From the NCBI RefSeq assembly GCF_030682845.1, contig NZ_JAUXNK010000076.1:1-55881 (forward strand): a DNA stretch of 55,881 bases, given 5' to 3'. The first letter of the stretch is position 1; every line of letters begins with the position of its first letter. Source of the DNA: Methanolobus sp. (GTDB lineage Archaea; Halobacteriota; Methanosarcinia; Methanosarcinales; Methanosarcinaceae). The notes beneath the pieces were generated by a model. The model saw only the letters and a program-made list of their open reading frames with translations, did not search any database and was not told the origin of the DNA. The translations under genes and the position numbers were made by a program. Of the stretch, positions 49,172 through 55,426 are shown one piece after another.

Positions 49172-49201
49172 ATATATATAATAAAAATTCTCAATTGTGA
49201 A
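49172..49201 (+). promoter_or_regulatory. nadA promoter with TTCACAATTGTGAA-type operator
   Basis: The TATA box ATATATATA is at 49172-49180. The palindrome TTCTCAATTGTGAA (one mismatch from the consensus TTCACAATTGTGAA) is at 49188-49201. Its downstream end lies about 25 bases after the TATA centre, at the expected transcription start, which suits a repressor site. The same palindrome is found near pscS, the HTH gene and tRNA-Cys. Confidence 0.7.
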
Positions 49202-49262
49202 TCCGTGTATGTGACTTCAGTCCAAAAGCACAAAAAAATAATCGCTCTATAAGGTATTACTC

Positions 49263-50195
49263 ATGACTGATATTCAAATAAGGACAAAGGACACTGAATC
49301 TATAATCAAGGATATACTCAGGCTCAAAGAAGAGAAGGACGCGGTGATCCTTGCGCACAACTACCAGATCGCAGATGTGCAGGACATTGCTGATTTCATC
49401 GGAGACTCGCTGGAGCTCTCAAGAAAAGCAGCTACCCTTGATAATGAAGTCATTGTTTTTTGCGGCGTGGACTTTATGGCAGAGACAGCAGCCGTCCTGT
49501 CGCCTGAAAAGACAGTGTTGTTACCAGCCCCTGATGCCAACTGTCCTATGTCAGACATGATCACCGCAGGTGAATTGCGTGTCCTCAAGGAAAGATTCCC
49601 TGAAGCCGCCGTTGTCTGCTATGTGAACACCAGTGCCGAGGTAAAGGCTGAAAGCGACATCTGCTGCACTTCCGCAAATGCCGTGAAGGTCGTGGAGTCA
49701 CTTAAAGAGAAACAAGTCCTTTTCGTCCCGGACAGGAACCTTGGACGCTATGTAGCCAGATTCACGGACAAGGAGATACTCCCATGGGAAGGTTTCTGTT
49801 TCGTACATGACAGGATAACTTCCGATGATGTAATGCGCGCCAGGGAGGCGCATCCTGAGGCAGAATTGCTTGTCCATCCTGAGTGCAGGCCGGAAGTCAT
49901 TGATCTTACAGACCACGTATTCTCCACATCCGGAATGATAAAGCATGTGTGCTCAAGTGACAAAAAGGAGTTCATTATAGGAACCGAGGTAGGTATACTG
50001 CACCGCATGGAAAAGGACTGTCCGGACAAGTCCTGCTATCCGTTATCTTCCGGCGCCATCTGTGCGACTATGAAAAGAACGGATATCCAGAAAGTGCACA
50101 GGGCCCTTGAAACTCTCACACCCAGGGTAACAGTGCCTGAAGAAGTTGCAGAAAGGGCACGCATGGCTATCCAGAGGATGCTCGATATTAAATAA
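49263..50195 (+). CDS. nadA: Quinolinate synthase NadA
   Basis: NadA condenses iminoaspartate with dihydroxyacetone phosphate to quinolinate, the precursor of NAD. It needs an oxygen-sensitive [4Fe-4S] cluster. The product has 310 residues. The three cluster cysteines expected for the short form of NadA are Cys94 (DANCPMSDM), Cys179 (WEGFCFVH) and Cys267 (GAICATMKRT), spaced as in other archaeal and Thermotoga enzymes. Neither nadB/aspartate dehydrogenase nor nadC is adjacent. Its promoter carries a copy of the palindrome shared with cysteine-related genes. Confidence 0.96.
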   Translation: MTDIQIRTKDTESIIKDILRLKEEKDAVILAHNYQIADVQDIADFIGDSLELSRKAATLDNEVIVFCGVDFMAETAAVLSPEKTVLLPAPDANCPMSDMITAGELRVLKERFPEAAVVCYVNTSAEVKAESDICCTSANAVKVVESLKEKQVLFVPDRNLGRYVARFTDKEILPWEGFCFVHDRITSDDVMRAREAHPEAELLVHPECRPEVIDLTDHVFSTSGMIKHVCSSDKKEFIIGTEVGILHRMEKDCPDKSCYPLSSGAICATMKRTDIQKVHRALETLTPRVTVPEEVAERARMAIQRMLDIK

Positions 50196-50212: not shown

Positions 50213-50950
50213 TTACACATCTGCAGAGCCATGCCCGCATACTTCACAGTCACAGCGCCTGCTGAACCTTAAAGTGTCCATCTCGGCCAGGAGGCCATTC
50301 CATATAAGAAGGCGGTCCGTGAGCAGTTTGCCTGCTCCCACCAGGTATTTGATAACCTCGTTGGCCTGTATCATGCCGATAATACCAGGGGTCACCCCCA
50401 CCACCGGAAATACCTCTGTCGGCGGAGCACAGGGAAAGATACAGCTAAGGCACGCGGACTTTCCAGGAATCACAGTTGTTGCCTGGCCGTCAAAACCTCG
50501 TATAGCACCATGGATGAGCGGAATATTTTTCTCATGGGCTGTGCGGTTGAGCAGGTAGCGTGTCGGATAGTTGTCCATGGCATCCACGATCAGGTCTGCA
50601 TCACCGACAAGTTCAGAAATGTTTGTTTGATCTATGACCTGGCATAAGGCTTCTATCTCGATATGCGGGTTGATGGCAAGCAGTTTCTCTTCAACAGACC
50701 TGACCTTCTCTTTTCCGATGTCCTGCTCCCAATGAAGCACCTGCCTGTTCAGGTTGGAACGCTCTACAAGGTCCTTGTCCACTATTCTGAGATAGCCCAC
50801 TCCTGCCGCTGCAAGATACAGCGCCACAGGACATCCCAGGCCGCCTGCACCTGCTATGAAAACCCGGGCTTTTTTCAGACGCTCCTGACCGTCCTTACCA
50901 AAGAGCATGACCTGCCTTGCATAGCGTTCAAGTTCAACTTCAGTTAGCAT
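50213..50950 (-). CDS. E1-like HesA/MoeB/ThiF-family adenylyltransferase
   Basis: These enzymes adenylate the C-terminal glycine of small ubiquitin-like sulfur carriers (MoaD, ThiS, archaeal SAMPs). The product has 245 residues. The nucleotide-binding loop is GAGGLG (residues 34-39). RSNLNRQVLH and VDAMDNYPTRYLLN carry the conserved Arg and Asp. Four zinc-type cysteines occur in CLSC and CEVC. It lies 69 bases downstream of pscS on the same strand, so it may be cotranscribed. A likely partner, a 64-residue protein ending in GG, is encoded at 54981-55175. Confidence 0.92.
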   Translation of the reverse strand: MLTEVELERYARQVMLFGKDGQERLKKARVFIAGAGGLGCPVALYLAAAGVGYLRIVDKDLVERSNLNRQVLHWEQDIGKEKVRSVEEKLLAINPHIEIEALCQVIDQTNISELVGDADLIVDAMDNYPTRYLLNRTAHEKNIPLIHGAIRGFDGQATTVIPGKSACLSCIFPCAPPTEVFPVVGVTPGIIGMIQANEVIKYLVGAGKLLTDRLLIWNGLLAEMDTLRFSRRCDCEVCGHGSADV

Positions 50951-51019: not shown

Positions 51020-52381
51020 TTAAACAATTTGAAGCTCATATTTCTCGGCAATTTCCTGGAACGAGTCCGCAAGATACCTCATCTTTTCCCATGACAGGCC
51101 ATAGGTATTCAGCTTCCACATGCGTGTCGCGCCTGCAAACTCTCCTGCGATGCCTCTTTTTGAAAGCTCGTCGGACAGGAAGAAACCTCTCCTCTTATGG
51201 CTTTGAGCCACCACATCGAAGCTGCCGGTGGTATCTACCTTCGAAAGAGTATGCTTCCGGGGATATTCAGACATGACCCGGCTACCCTGGATGGACAGCA
51301 GCCTTTCCATGAAGAAGTTAGACTTTTTAACCTCCTCATCCCAATGCAGTGTTCGCTCTTTGACCACAGGGAAGGAAGCCATCATCCCCATGAGCGTAGA
51401 TCCCATAAGAGTGCAGCCCAGCATTTCCACTTCCTTTATGCCGAACTTGCGTTTGGTGACATCCCCTGTCATCTGTGTTGTCCTGAACACCACATCAGCC
51501 CATTCATCAGTGGTCGCAAGCACACCTGAAGGAGCGGGAGAAGCCATACTCTTATGACCAGAACCCACTACAAAGTCAGCCCCCATCTTCTTACCATCCA
51601 CCGGCATGACGCCCACTGTATATGCACCGTTGTAAAGCAGAGGGATATCGTACTGGTGGGCGACCTTTGATATGCCGCGTACATCGTGCTCGTTGGCGAA
51701 CTGGTAGTCAAAATGGTCTATCATGACAAGCTTTGGCAATTTTCCGGTCTCGATGATTACGGTTTCTATCTTCTCAGCAACAGCATCCGGAGTTATCTTG
51801 TTCCCGGCACTTACCGGAACCTCCTTCACGATACCACCTGCCTCTTCCACGGCAAGGAATTCCGTGTAGTGGGCAAGTCCGGACACTATCACAGAGTCAC
51901 CCGGCCCTACAAGACTGGATGCCACAGCCTGGAAACCTCTCCTGGCGCCGGGAACCACGCGAGCGGTGTCCATGTTAAGGAAAGCTGCAAGCTCGGTGTG
52001 GAAATCAGCAATCGGGGGTTTTGAGATCTTATCCAGGCGGAAGGGCTTGCGGCAGTTGTCACAGGCTGAATAGCCGTCCCCGTAGGCTATGAGGGCCTTG
52101 CGGGCCTCAGGTGTGAGCCTGCCGGCAGCCTGGATGGGCTGTATATTGATGTACTCTTCCTCACGGCTACGAATTTCCATGTTACCGGCTATCCTGGTCA
52201 CCTCAGGAGAGCCTGTGCCAGCTTCCAGATCATTGATAATTGCCTTCACTCTGCTCATCTGCTCGTGGAATCTGTCCCCTTCATGCAAACCTATGCCATC
52301 AGGCACGGAGTCACGAAGCGTTTGGCGGACATCTTCCAGGGCAAAGAGCGCCTCGAATGTTTTCTGAACCCTTATATCCAA
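51020..52381 (-). CDS. pscS: O-phosphoseryl-tRNA:cysteinyl-tRNA synthase (SepCysS) with N-terminal extension
   Basis: SepCysS converts phosphoseryl-tRNA(Cys) to cysteinyl-tRNA(Cys) with a sulfur donor, the second step of tRNA-dependent cysteine synthesis in methanogens. The product has 453 residues. The PLP lysine is Lys277 (GSGHKSMASP). The conserved cysteines are Cys107 and Cys110 (YSACDNCRKPF) and Cys323 (LGCTLMG). The first 75 or so residues are an extra helical region that probably corresponds to SepCysE, a separate scaffold protein in some methanogens. The start is TTG 52381, with AGGGG 9 bases upstream. Its promoter holds two copies of the TTCACAATTGTGAA-type palindrome. Confidence 0.95.
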   Translation of the reverse strand: MDIRVQKTFEALFALEDVRQTLRDSVPDGIGLHEGDRFHEQMSRVKAIINDLEAGTGSPEVTRIAGNMEIRSREEEYINIQPIQAAGRLTPEARKALIAYGDGYSACDNCRKPFRLDKISKPPIADFHTELAAFLNMDTARVVPGARRGFQAVASSLVGPGDSVIVSGLAHYTEFLAVEEAGGIVKEVPVSAGNKITPDAVAEKIETVIIETGKLPKLVMIDHFDYQFANEHDVRGISKVAHQYDIPLLYNGAYTVGVMPVDGKKMGADFVVGSGHKSMASPAPSGVLATTDEWADVVFRTTQMTGDVTKRKFGIKEVEMLGCTLMGSTLMGMMASFPVVKERTLHWDEEVKKSNFFMERLLSIQGSRVMSEYPRKHTLSKVDTTGSFDVVAQSHKRRGFFLSDELSKRGIAGEFAGATRMWKLNTYGLSWEKMRYLADSFQEIAEKYELQIV

Positions 52382-52417
52382 GTTGAATACCCCTATGACT
52401 TTATTCTTTAATTTTAA

Positions 52418-52431
52418 ATCACAATTGTGAA
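52418..52431. promoter_or_regulatory. Operator copy 1 in the pscS/HTH intergenic region
   Basis: ATCACAATTGTGAA has one mismatch from the consensus, and its inner 12 bases (TCACAATTGTGA) are a perfect palindrome. For pscS, on the minus strand, the likely TATA box (CTTTATAT) is near 52454-52461, which puts transcription start at or beside this site. Confidence 0.7.
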
Positions 52432-52439
52432 TTAAGTAT

Positions 52440-52453
52440 TTAACAATTGTGAA
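52440..52453. promoter_or_regulatory. Operator copy 2 in the pscS/HTH intergenic region
   Basis: TTAACAATTGTGAA has one mismatch from the consensus. Its centre is 22 bp from that of copy 1, two helical turns, so two dimers could bind on the same DNA face. It abuts the probable pscS TATA box. Confidence 0.7.
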
Positions 52454-52525
52454 TATATAAAGTTAATGAGGTATTGAAGCAACACAAAGCTCAAAGCCGA
52501 AAAATACTTTAAGCCATGAACTCAA

Positions 52526-52539
52526 TCCACAATTGTGAA
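52526..52539. promoter_or_regulatory. Operator copy 3, upstream of the HTH regulator gene
   Basis: TCCACAATTGTGAA has one mismatch from the consensus. It lies 52 bases before the HTH start codon and 15 bases after a weak TATA-like element (AAAATACTTTA, 52501-52511). It could therefore allow autoregulation of the HTH-cysteine desulfurase-fdhD genes. Confidence 0.68.
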
Positions 52540-52590
52540 AACTATCCGGGAGACGCACATTCCAGCAAATGGAAGATTGGAGACTGAATT

Positions 52591-52911
52591 ATGAAATTAC
52601 CCTGTGAAAAGGTTGTATGGGATGTTCTGCCTGCCATCAGGGCAGCAATTGCCGAAGAGCTTGCAAACTGCGGCCTTACGCAACAGGAGATAGCCAGGGA
52701 ACTGGACATGGCGCCTTCTGCGGTCTCACAATACCTTTCCAAGAAAAGAGGCTATCGAATAGTTTTCGAAGATGATGTAAAGGAGTCCATAAGCCAGCTG
52801 GCCCTGGACATTAAAGAAAAGCGTGTTACAGATATTGTGCCCAGGGTATGCCGTATATGTACGCAGTTACGAGCTGAGGGAAACAGGTGCGGTGGTCACG
52901 ATACCGGTTAA
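52591..52911 (+). CDS. Small HTH transcriptional regulator with CX2CX9CX2H motif
   Basis: The product has 106 residues. An N-terminal XRE-like helix-turn-helix spans residues of about 29-50 (LTQQEIARELDMAPSAVSQY). The C-terminus holds Cys87, Cys90, Cys100 and His103, spaced CX2CX9CX2H, and there are further cysteines at 5 and 27. It resembles a group of small archaeal HTH proteins (COG2522 type). The cysteine cluster could bind zinc or an Fe-S cluster and sense cysteine, sulfur or Fe-S status. It lies in the middle of genes that share the TTCACAATTGTGAA palindrome and is the obvious candidate to bind it. GGAG is 8 bases before the ATG. It leads a probable operon with the cysteine desulfurase and fdhD. 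Confidence 0.85.
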   Translation: MKLPCEKVVWDVLPAIRAAIAEELANCGLTQQEIARELDMAPSAVSQYLSKKRGYRIVFEDDVKESISQLALDIKEKRVTDIVPRVCRICTQLRAEGNRCGGHDTG

Positions 52912-52964: not shown

Positions 52965-54146
52965 TTGAGAAACACTGAGCTCAGAAAGGATTTTCCTCTC
53001 CTTAACGATGTCATCTATTTCGATAATGCAGCTACCAGCCTCATACCTGAACCTGTAATCGATATAATGAATGAGTTTGAGAGGATGTACAGGGCAAATG
53101 TGGGGAGGGGAGTGCACAGGCTGACCAGCGTCGCTTCACAGAAATACTTTAATGCGCACCAGAAGGTCGCCCGTTTCATAGGAGCTGATGCAGGCACTAC
53201 AGTGCTTACAAAAAACACCACTGAAGCTATCAATATGGTAGCATGTGGCCTTAAATGGAGCAAAGGAGACAGCATCGTGACAACTGCCATAGAGCACCAT
53301 TCCAATTTCCTCCCATGGATGCGCCTTCGTCAAAGAGGAGTCGGGATGAACGTGATTATGCCACAATCCGACGGCACGTTCGACCTTTCGGACTTTGAGC
53401 TTGCAATTAATGACAATACGCGCCTTGTAGCCGTTTCCCATGCATCCAATGTACTTGGCACTATCCTGCCGGTGAAGGAAATTGCCGCCATATGTGAAGA
53501 ACATGCCACCAGATTACTCGTCGACGGCGCTCAGTCAGCACCGCACCTGCCGGTTAACGTCATGGATATCGGCTGCGATTATTTCTGCTTTTCAGGACAC
53601 AAGATGCTCGGTCCCACAGGTACAGGAATACTCTGGATGAAGGATAACAACATCAGCCCTCTCCTTGTAGGAGGAGGGATGATAGAAAGCGTCTCAATTG
53701 AGGAATATACGCTTACAGAAGGCTACCAGCGCCATGAAGCCGGAACACCGCACATAGCGGGAATGATAGGCCTCGGAGGCGCTGCGGAATACCTGGAGAA
53801 GGCAGGCATGAATGACATAAAGAAACATGAGGAGGAACTTACCCGCAAGCTCCTCACGGGACTTGCCTCACTGGAACATGTCCATATCTACGGACCTGAA
53901 AATGATAAGGACAGAATAGGCGTCGTCTCTTTCAATATAGAAGGCATGCATCCCCATGAAGTCTCCCACATACTCGACGAGGCCTCTTCGATCATGACCC
54001 GATCAGGAGAACACTGCTGTCAGCCGCTGATGAAGTATCTGGGGCTTCCCGGCGGGACCGTCCGGGTGAGTCTATACCTGTACAATACCGAAGAAGAGAT
54101 CGACCTGTTACTGGATACCCTTGAGGAACTTACACGGAGGTTGTAA
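52965..54146 (+). CDS. Cysteine desulfurase (SufS/NifS-like, class V aminotransferase fold)
   Basis: The enzyme takes sulfur from cysteine as a persulfide for Fe-S clusters, thionucleosides or molybdenum cofactor sulfuration. The product has 393 residues. The PLP lysine is Lys213 (FSGHKMLGPTG). The catalytic cysteine lies in RSGEHCCQP (Cys351/Cys352), followed by the C-terminal VRVSLYLYNTEEEID. The start is TTG 52965, with GAGGGCGG just upstream. It lies 53 bases after the HTH gene and runs into fdhD, which in bacteria receives sulfur from a cysteine desulfurase. Confidence 0.93.
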   Translation: MRNTELRKDFPLLNDVIYFDNAATSLIPEPVIDIMNEFERMYRANVGRGVHRLTSVASQKYFNAHQKVARFIGADAGTTVLTKNTTEAINMVACGLKWSKGDSIVTTAIEHHSNFLPWMRLRQRGVGMNVIMPQSDGTFDLSDFELAINDNTRLVAVSHASNVLGTILPVKEIAAICEEHATRLLVDGAQSAPHLPVNVMDIGCDYFCFSGHKMLGPTGTGILWMKDNNISPLLVGGGMIESVSIEEYTLTEGYQRHEAGTPHIAGMIGLGGAAEYLEKAGMNDIKKHEEELTRKLLTGLASLEHVHIYGPENDKDRIGVVSFNIEGMHPHEVSHILDEASSIMTRSGEHCCQPLMKYLGLPGGTVRVSLYLYNTEEEIDLLLDTLEELTRRL

Positions 54147-54147
54147 C

Positions 54148-54975
54148 ATCTTTAAAGAAATTCCCTGCATTAAAGGAGAAGGAGAGTCATTCTCGCAGGA
54201 GATGCACCCGGTCATTGAAGAGATGCCTCTTGCAGTAAACGTTAATGGACGACATGCCCTTACAGCTATGACAAGCCCGGTGATGCTAAGGGAATTTGTG
54301 ACGGGCTTCCTTTACACCGAACGTATCATCAAAGGCATTGAAGAGATAGAATCCATCAGAATAGAAGGCAACACCGCCGATGTTCTTACAAGAAATCCGT
54401 TCAAGATACTCATGTCACACAAAACCGTCCTTAGCGGATGCGGCGGCAGTATGTCTTTCCTGGATATAGGGAAGCTTCCTCAGATAAACTCCAAACTCTC
54501 CATTAGTGCGCAGGACATCGGAGATGCTGTCAGAGAGGCACTTGATTCAAAACTGCATGTCAAGACAGGAGGTATCCATGTTGTGGCACTCTATGGACCT
54601 GGCGGAAAGATACAGGTCATTGAGGACATCGGCAGGCACAATGCACTTGACAGGGCCATCGGATACGCGCTTGAACAAGGCATTGACCTTTCAGGCACCT
54701 ATGTGATCTGTTCCGGACGCATATCCTCTGAGATGGTCAGGAAATGCCTGGTGGCAAATATACCCATCATAGTATCAAGGGGAGCCACGACTACGCTCGC
54801 CGTCGATATTGCAAAAGCGCGCGGACTGACCGTAGTAGGGTTTGTCAGGGGAAAGAAGATGAACGTCTACTCTGGCGGGGAGAGGATATCCGATATCCCG
54901 GCCAATGATGCTGCATACGTGGCAGAGGTGACAGATGAAGGAACAGAAGAGAACACGGAAGATCAAAAGATGTAA
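54148..54975 (+). CDS. fdhD: FdhD-family sulfurtransferase / molybdenum cofactor carrier
   Basis: FdhD passes sulfur from a cysteine desulfurase to the molybdenum or tungsten cofactor of formate dehydrogenase. The conserved body is clear: VIEEMPLAVNVNGRHALTAM, LREFVTGFLYTERII, VLSGCGGSMSF, VIEDIGRHNALDRAIGYAL, CSGRISSEMVRKC and SRGATTTLAVDIA. The E. coli CGxCG pair is reduced to one cysteine (GCGGS). The start is uncertain. TTG 54121 lies inside the upstream gene with no ribosome site, and ATG 54202 has poor spacing. GGAGG (54136-54140) sits 7 bases before an in-frame ATC at 54148, used here as a possible non-canonical start. No formate dehydrogenase is in the window. Confidence 0.9.
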   Translation: MFKEIPCIKGEGESFSQEMHPVIEEMPLAVNVNGRHALTAMTSPVMLREFVTGFLYTERIIKGIEEIESIRIEGNTADVLTRNPFKILMSHKTVLSGCGGSMSFLDIGKLPQINSKLSISAQDIGDAVREALDSKLHVKTGGIHVVALYGPGGKIQVIEDIGRHNALDRAIGYALEQGIDLSGTYVICSGRISSEMVRKCLVANIPIIVSRGATTTLAVDIAKARGLTVVGFVRGKKMNVYSGGERISDIPANDAAYVAEVTDEGTEENTEDQKM

Positions 54976-54980
54976 TGAGG

Positions 54981-55175
54981 TCATCCTCCAAAGACCACAT
55001 GAATTATCCTGATCTCTGCACCATTTTCAAGAATCCTGTCCTCCGGTATAACCTCGCCGTTCATCACAACAAGCACCTCACTCTGGCTGATACCCAACTG
55101 CCGGAGCAGTCCTTCCACCGAAATTGGACCTGTGCTTATATCCTCTGTTTTTCCTGAAGGGAGTTTTATCTTCAT
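54981..55175 (-). CDS. Ubiquitin-like sulfur carrier (MoaD/ThiS/SAMP-like)
   Basis: The product has 64 residues with a beta-grasp pattern and a C-terminal VVFGG. The diglycine is the site adenylated by E1-like enzymes and converted to a thiocarboxylate or isopeptide. It resembles ThiS and MoaD, but the pathway cannot be named. It lies about 55 bases downstream of tRNA-Cys on the same strand with no clear promoter between. It may therefore share the tRNA-Cys transcript and its operator. The E1-like gene at 50213-50950 is the likely partner. Confidence 0.82.
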   Translation of the reverse strand: MKIKLPSGKTEDISTGPISVEGLLRQLGISQSEVLVVMNGEVIPEDRILENGAEIRIIHVVFGG

Positions 55176-55230: not shown

Positions 55231-55302
55231 AGCCAGGACCCGGATTCGAACCGGGATGGAATCGCTCTGCAGGCGATTGCGTAGCCGCTCCGCCATCCTG
55301 GC
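55231..55302 (-). tRNA. tRNA-Cys (anticodon GCA), CCA not encoded
   Basis: The acceptor stem GCCAGGA pairs with TCCTGGC, and the discriminator is U as expected for tRNA-Cys. The anticodon stem-loop ATCGC-CTGCAGA-GCGAT gives GCA. The T arm is CCCGG-TTCGAAT-CCGGG. The palindrome TTCACAATTGTGAA lies 3 bases beyond its 5' end, over the expected transcription start. Confidence 0.96.
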
Positions 55303-55305
55303 ATA

Positions 55306-55319
55306 TTCACAATTGTGAA
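55306..55319. promoter_or_regulatory. Perfect operator copy at the tRNA-Cys promoter
   Basis: TTCACAATTGTGAA is the perfect palindrome of the five copies. A TATA-like element on the minus strand (CTTTATAATG, about 55337-55346) would start transcription within this site. Binding here should block or tune tRNA-Cys synthesis, and that of the downstream sulfur carrier if cotranscribed. Confidence 0.75.
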
Positions 55320-55426
55320 TTGTAAGAATGTCATTCATTATAAAGATTGCGACCTTGTGAAGATGTCGACAGCAGATTTATTATCAATGAGGTGCATCCA
55401 TGACACGCCCGGCAGATTTTCAACAC

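Follow-up and report, generated by a model that had tools for sequence, protein, structure and literature searches.

The cysteine and sulfur gene cluster

The window analysed here is a stretch of 55,881 nucleotides from Methanolobus sp., comprising positions 1 to 55,881 of contig NZ_JAUXNK010000076.1 (assembly GCF_030682845.1). Near its end, a tRNA-Cys gene adjoins a cluster of sulfur and cysteine genes (Table 1). The acceptor stem of this tRNA is intact (7 bp), with U73 supplied by the adjoining base, 55230, and a divergent tRNA-Arg gene lies beyond it at the window end. A gene for a small ThiS/SAMP-like protein follows 54 bp downstream on the same strand and is probably read from the tRNA-Cys promoter. 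The cluster further encodes a second Sep-tRNA:Cys-tRNA synthase paralog (SepCysS2), an HTH protein, a SufS-type cysteine desulfurase, FdhD, NadA, and a MoeB/ThiF-like E1 enzyme. The desulfurase gene forms a probable operon with the HTH gene, to which fdhD probably also belongs, and the E1 enzyme is a possible partner of the ThiS/SAMP-like protein. In the closest complete genome (G111), this cluster recurs together with all five palindromic sites.

Table 1. Features of the cluster, in coordinates of the window.
Feature	Position	Strand	Basis or remark
Operator upstream of nadA, 1 mismatch of 16	49187..49202	.	Window motif search
NadA quinolinate synthase	49263..50195	+	Profile matches
MoeB/ThiF-like E1 enzyme, 3' of SepCysS2, same strand	50213..50950	-	ThiF 1.6e-73
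SepCysS2, Sep-tRNA:Cys-tRNA synthase, second paralog	51020..52381	-	TIGR02539, NF006810
Operator, second SepCysS-promoter site, 1 mismatch of 16	52417..52432	.	22 bp from the other site
Operator, SepCysS promoter, TATA-proximal, 2 mismatches of 16	52439..52454	.	Window motif search
Operator over predicted start of HTH gene, 2 mismatches of 16	52525..52540	.	Window motif search
HTH regulator, 106 aa, candidate operator-binding repressor	52591..52911	+	HTH_3/HTH_24
SufS-type cysteine desulfurase, 3' of HTH gene	52965..54146	+	Profile matches; without own site in 13 loci
FdhD sulfurtransferase, overlaps desulfurase gene	54121..54975	+	TIGR00129
ThiS/SAMP2-like small sulfur-carrier or modifier protein	54981..55175	-	Pfam ThiS 6.5e-8, SAMP2 9.2e-8
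tRNA-Cys(GCA), non-rRNA-operon copy	55231..55302	-	ARAGORN
Palindromic operator ATTCACAATTGTGAAT, 16 bp, perfect	55305..55320	.	Sequence; best of five window sites
Predicted tRNA-Cys transcription start	55315..55318 (about)	-	Predicted, 19-22 nt from TATA element
TATA-like element TTTATAAT, tRNA-Cys promoter	55337..55344	-	Sequence and M. psychrophilus spacing rule

A palindrome shared by the promoters of the cluster

The tRNA-Cys gene is preceded by a perfect palindrome, ATTCACAATTGTGAAT, separated from the 5' end of the tRNA by 2 bp. A sequence-only reading of the window had described a perfect 14-bp palindrome starting 3 bases from that end. This core, TTCACAATTGTGAA (55306-55319), lies at exactly that distance, and the full palindrome extends to 16 bp. 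The TATA-like element TTTATAAT, which the same reading placed about 18 bases away, is 17 bp upstream of the core. Its further claim that the palindrome matches the SepCysS promoter also stands, as two sites are present there, with one and two mismatches of 16, respectively. In the dRNA-seq map of Methanolobus psychrophilus, which records 49 start sites for 40 tRNA genes, BRE/TATA elements lie ~19-22 nt from start sites (PMC5378194). Given the position of the TATA-like element, this spacing rule predicts that transcription of tRNA-Cys starts within the palindrome.

These sites are concentrated in the cluster. At three or fewer mismatches, the 16-mer has five matches in the window against 0.35 expected, a number reached by none of 100 shuffles. 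Across all 110 contigs of the genome (2.87 Mb), only five sites match the 14-mer with at most one mismatch. All five fall within 6.1 kb: one before nadA, three between the SepCysS and HTH genes, and one at tRNA-Cys. Five random sites would share a single 6.1-kb stretch with a probability of ~1e-10. One operator thus occurs at several promoters and is rare elsewhere in the genome. The genome-wide counts, together with the conservation reported below, rule out a chance palindrome. A relaxed pattern gave 13 and 17 matches in the same genome, compared with 8 and 6 for a reversed control; these matches are mostly near background, and we therefore claim no additional targets.

The candidate regulator

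The HTH protein is the best candidate for binding these sites, its gene lying within the cluster and carrying a site at its own promoter. The closest named relative, from Methanolobus sp. Soudan_28, is 98% identical. Pfam recognizes only a generic HTH domain, and neither a sequence search nor a fold search with a structure model found a significant relative in the PDB. Cysteines 5, 87, 90, and 100 (window numbering) are invariant in alignments of ~40 orthologues. A role in sensing Fe-S clusters, metals, or thiols is no more than a plausible guess from these conserved cysteines.

Genomes with an orthologue of the HTH gene carry a mean of 5.5 sites (one mismatch or fewer), and those without carry 1.4 (p = 0.002; n = 40 and 5). 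The regulator is thus present where the motif is, in a comparison that includes only five orthologue-less genomes. We favor a repressor function for the HTH protein, although an activator could also use these sites. Conserved sites alone give no sign of their effect, and several sites per promoter occur with activators too. However, the palindrome lies over the predicted starts of both tRNA-Cys and the HTH gene. Furthermore, tandem sites fall beside or across the TATA element; in many Methanolobus tRNA promoters, two sites are spaced by 23 bp, and the distal one overlaps it. Activators in archaea generally bind upstream of BRE/TATA, which counts against an activator here, and we consider this reading unlikely.

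The palindrome might instead be bound by another protein, either a distant paralog or an unlinked regulator. A paralog of the HTH protein, with ~36-43% identity, does occur in almost every genome of the family. Nevertheless, genomes that have the paralog and lack the orthologue contain few sites (0, 0, 1, 2, and 4), and it is the orthologue whose gene belongs to the cluster and has a site in its promoter. We thus regard binding by another protein as quite unlikely, and the clustered HTH protein as the probable binder. One such paralog (G000:C90:53889-54182; L190:3887-4183), with ~40% identity and a similar cysteine pattern, is found downstream of another desulfurase-like gene.

Conservation of the operator in Methanosarcinaceae

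We examined 78 distinct regions upstream of tRNA-Cys genes from across the family, 23 of which are in regulator/SepCysS clusters, scoring a site when it fell within 120 bp at three or fewer mismatches. The operator is present at 21 of the 23 cluster-borne tRNA-Cys genes and at none of the 55 others, several of which sit in 16S-tRNA-23S-tRNA-Cys-5S operons. The sequence-only reading had asked whether the palindrome is kept upstream of tRNA-Cys in related species; it is, in the cluster-borne class. As a general feature of tRNA-Cys genes the operator can be rejected, since rRNA-operon copies and other free-standing copies have no site.

We find the same selectivity gene by gene within Methanolobus. 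With a site required within 200 bp upstream at two or fewer mismatches, sites precede SepCysS2 in 7/7 loci, nadA in 11/12, and the HTH gene in 18/21. None was found before EF1a (0/10), S10 (0/13), the desulfurase gene (0/13), or fdhD (0/13). That is, the operator is kept before orthologous genes and is absent before control genes.

In several loci from other genera (L202, L203, L204, and L208), operator, tRNA-Cys, and SepCysS2 follow one another on one strand. In another locus (L200), four tRNA-Cys genes each have a perfect TTCACAATTGTGAAC ~8 bp upstream, and a fifth tRNA-Cys and SepCysS2 come next. Amplification of this kind is seen at L101 (G107:C6) and L200 (G101:C130), where four to five tRNA-Cys genes surround SepCysS2, most of them with their own operator.

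Second copies of tRNA-Cys and SepCysS

Four tRNA-Cys genes are present in the complete genome G111. Its cluster copy is 100% identical to that of the window; the other three are 92% identical, lack the operator, and are located in 16S-tRNA-23S-tRNA-Cys-5S operons. In the draft genome to which the window belongs, the cluster copy is the sole tRNA-Cys found. The window's tRNA-Cys is an extra copy, and the housekeeping copies, as seen in relatives, are those of the rRNA operons.

SepCysS2 is likewise distinct from the ordinary enzyme. It is 453 aa long and carries an N-terminal extension of ~70 aa. The ordinary SepCysS, encoded on contig C58, has 45% identity to it and aligns only from residue 75, while PDB entries 3wkr and 2e7i align only from residues 71 and 74, respectively. 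The extended paralog (at least 68% identity) occurs in part of the genomes of the family, and the ordinary one in nearly all. The sequence-only reading had linked this tRNA-Cys with SepCysS. The link is strong, and it joins the second copies of both rather than the housekeeping ones. The same reading erred in taking SepCysS as the enzyme that charges the tRNA with cysteine: SepRS places phosphoserine on tRNA-Cys, and SepCysS then converts the phosphoserine into cysteine (PMC5424206). Both SepRS and CysRS are encoded in the window's genome.

A side observation concerns the housekeeping SepCysS matches in genera g5 and g27, which contain an in-frame TGA and, in some cases, also a TAG (e.g., G019:C1:1774583-1775680 and G179:C57:19949-21046). 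A pseudogene, recoding, or alignment past a stop codon is each conceivable.

Paired presence and loss with SepCysS2

Intact operator-bearing tRNA-Cys genes and SepCysS2 tend to occur together. Scored by hand, locus by locus, 21 of the 24 genomes that have SepCysS2 also have such a tRNA gene, compared with 3 of the 22 that lack SepCysS2 (Fisher p = 7e-7). We also compared nine independent pairs differing in SepCysS2, drawn from a tree of the regulator, which is one short gene. The tRNA differed in the same way in a mean of 7.0 pairs and in the opposite way in 0.2 (median p = 0.016). There are exceptions in both directions. A Methanolobus (L114/G119), L130, and L196 have an operator tRNA without SepCysS2. 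Conversely, SepCysS2 is present in L107/G037, L127, and L129, yet reading of these loci showed no intact tRNA-Cys with an operator.

Loss is captured at several loci. The closest case is that of L097, a near relative of the window whose regulator is 98% identical: only two fragments of SepCysS2 remain there and tRNA-Cys is gone, with the operator and the ThiS-like gene retained. Other Methanolobus without SepCysS2 have a half-decayed tRNA-Cys, of which mostly the T-arm and 3' end remain. Since the operator is kept upstream of the ThiS/SAMP-like gene after the tRNA has been lost, the Methanolobus unit is best read as tRNA-Cys plus the ThiS-like gene under one shared promoter. An operator serving the tRNA alone is thus rejected. 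The suggestion of the sequence-only reading that the palindrome controls tRNA-Cys is supported, with the correction that such control would be shared between the tRNA and the ThiS/SAMP-like gene. In other genera, the operator-bearing tRNA-Cys is tied to SepCysS2 instead of the ThiS-like gene.

The persistence of operators before the ThiS-like gene in Methanolobus species with a deleted or degenerate tRNA-Cys could also mean that the operator belongs to that gene, and that the tRNA between promoter and gene is merely carried along. We hold this to be very unlikely. In L202, L203, L204, and L208, where the operator directly precedes tRNA-Cys and SepCysS2 comes next, no ThiS-like match was found in the locus. 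In addition, four tRNA-Cys genes of a single genome are each preceded by an operator of their own, and decay of the tRNA tracks the loss of SepCysS2.

That the palindrome acts as an RNA hairpin of the precursor tRNA, in processing or attenuation, can be largely rejected. Full transcription of the palindrome would give a 6-bp stem with an AAUU loop, but the predicted start lies inside the palindrome, the palindrome recurs before protein genes, and its central two bases are conserved like the arms (98%). In addition, few of 194 sites show double compensatory changes, although these sites were chosen at two or fewer mismatches, which biases such counts.

Two further features were noted 5' of the ThiS-like gene. 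In the degenerate tRNA-Cys genes of L104-L108, the anticodon arm is less well preserved than the T-arm and the 3' acceptor strand, a pattern compatible with either ordinary decay or a retained tRNA-like leader. In L104-L108, L110, L112, L114, and L115, the interval from the tRNA, or what is left of it, to the ThiS-like gene holds a conserved stem-loop of the type GCAGGAGTC..GGCTCCTGC with AAAAACGT after it; the window and L096-L100 lack this stem-loop.

A proposed local regulon for cysteine synthesis

We propose, with a probability of roughly 78%, that the palindrome serves as operator for a small local regulon, concerned with sulfur and the tRNA-dependent synthesis of cysteine and repressed by the HTH protein. 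The sequences show the site itself, its confinement to the cluster, its conservation, its selective presence at cluster-borne tRNA-Cys genes, and the paired presence and loss of the operator-bearing tRNA with SepCysS2; from these we infer the binding protein, the repressive sign, the start site, the signal, and the use of the tRNA as carrier. Most likely, the HTH protein would bind the palindrome as a dimer. When bound, it would cover the start sites of its own gene, SepCysS2, nadA, and the unit of tRNA-Cys and ThiS-like gene, and so block formation of the start complex. A change in a cysteine, sulfur, or Fe-S signal, probably sensed by the four invariant cysteines, would then release the protein. 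Upon release, extra tRNA-Cys would be made alongside SepCysS2, the SufS-type desulfurase, FdhD, and the ThiS-like carrier. The housekeeping SepCysS and the housekeeping tRNA-Cys, which in relatives lies in rRNA operons, would remain outside this control.

Regulation of a tRNA gene in such a regulon might be understood from the part the tRNA plays in this pathway, where cysteine is assembled on it as a carrier; tRNA-Cys would thus be regulated as a component of the pathway. Given the chemistry that SepRS and SepCysS carry out on tRNA-Cys (PMC5424206), more carrier tRNA could raise the capacity for cysteine synthesis. A bolder version is that Methanosarcinaceae maintain a second, inducible tRNA-dependent cysteine pathway, with its own SepCysS and a dedicated tRNA-Cys repressed by a cysteine-bearing HTH sensor, in which the tRNA serves mainly as a carrier and not in translation. 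We offer this version tentatively, at odds slightly short of even. If it is true, a tRNA gene is regulated here like the gene for a metabolic cofactor.

Relation to known systems

Part of this arrangement is already known. The clade VII SepCysS loci (SepCysSN) of Mukai et al. 2017 have an N-terminally extended SepCysS near tRNA-Cys and sulfur genes (PMC5424206), and in these loci, too, the extended enzyme is a second SepCysS beside an ordinary one. The window shows the same traits, with an extended SepCysS besides the ordinary one and linked tRNA-Cys and sulfur genes. The main text of that paper makes no mention of regulation and describes neither the shared operator and the HTH regulator nor the split of tRNA-Cys copies into rRNA-operon and operator-bearing ones and the paired loss. 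In the open-licence literature, we found no report of the regulator, the operator, or the paired loss. Relative to the open literature searched, the new element is an operator over a non-rRNA tRNA-Cys that is common to the enzyme acting on that tRNA and is lost with that enzyme.

The candidate regulator can be compared with regulators of Fe-S and cysteine metabolism, namely, IscR and SufR in Bacteria and SurR and MsvR in Archaea. These are also small HTH proteins with conserved cysteines (IscR: PMC4618611). Further traits in common are the regulator's own gene within the regulon and a neighboring cysteine desulfurase gene. In contrast to all four, the window's protein belongs to another HTH family, has a different cysteine pattern (Cys5, Cys87-x2-Cys90, Cys100), shows no sequence or fold relation that we could find, and has a tRNA gene among its putative targets. 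For IscR and SufR specifically, we found no homology by sequence or by fold, the family matches being to generic HTH domains.

Genes for tRNAs are usually taken to be constitutive or controlled by growth rate. Here, one particular tRNA gene appears to answer to a specific operator in common with the very enzyme that modifies the amino acid carried by the tRNA. This provides a testable reason for the several tRNA-Cys genes and two SepCysS enzymes of these methanogens. It also points to a protein that may regulate the supply of sulfur and cysteine in Methanosarcina, a genetically tractable group in which little is known of such regulation. Review passages describe genomes with more than one tRNA-Cys in which SepRS and CysRS prefer distinct ones; the case in those passages is one of enzyme preference, and they do not mention transcriptional control of one copy.

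A final observation concerns position 37 of the tRNA. In M. mazei, G37 is a determinant for both SepRS and CysRS (PMC9976931). The cluster tRNA-Cys of three loci of genus g6 (L133, L134, and L135) has A37 (CTGCAAC loop) in place of the usual G37.
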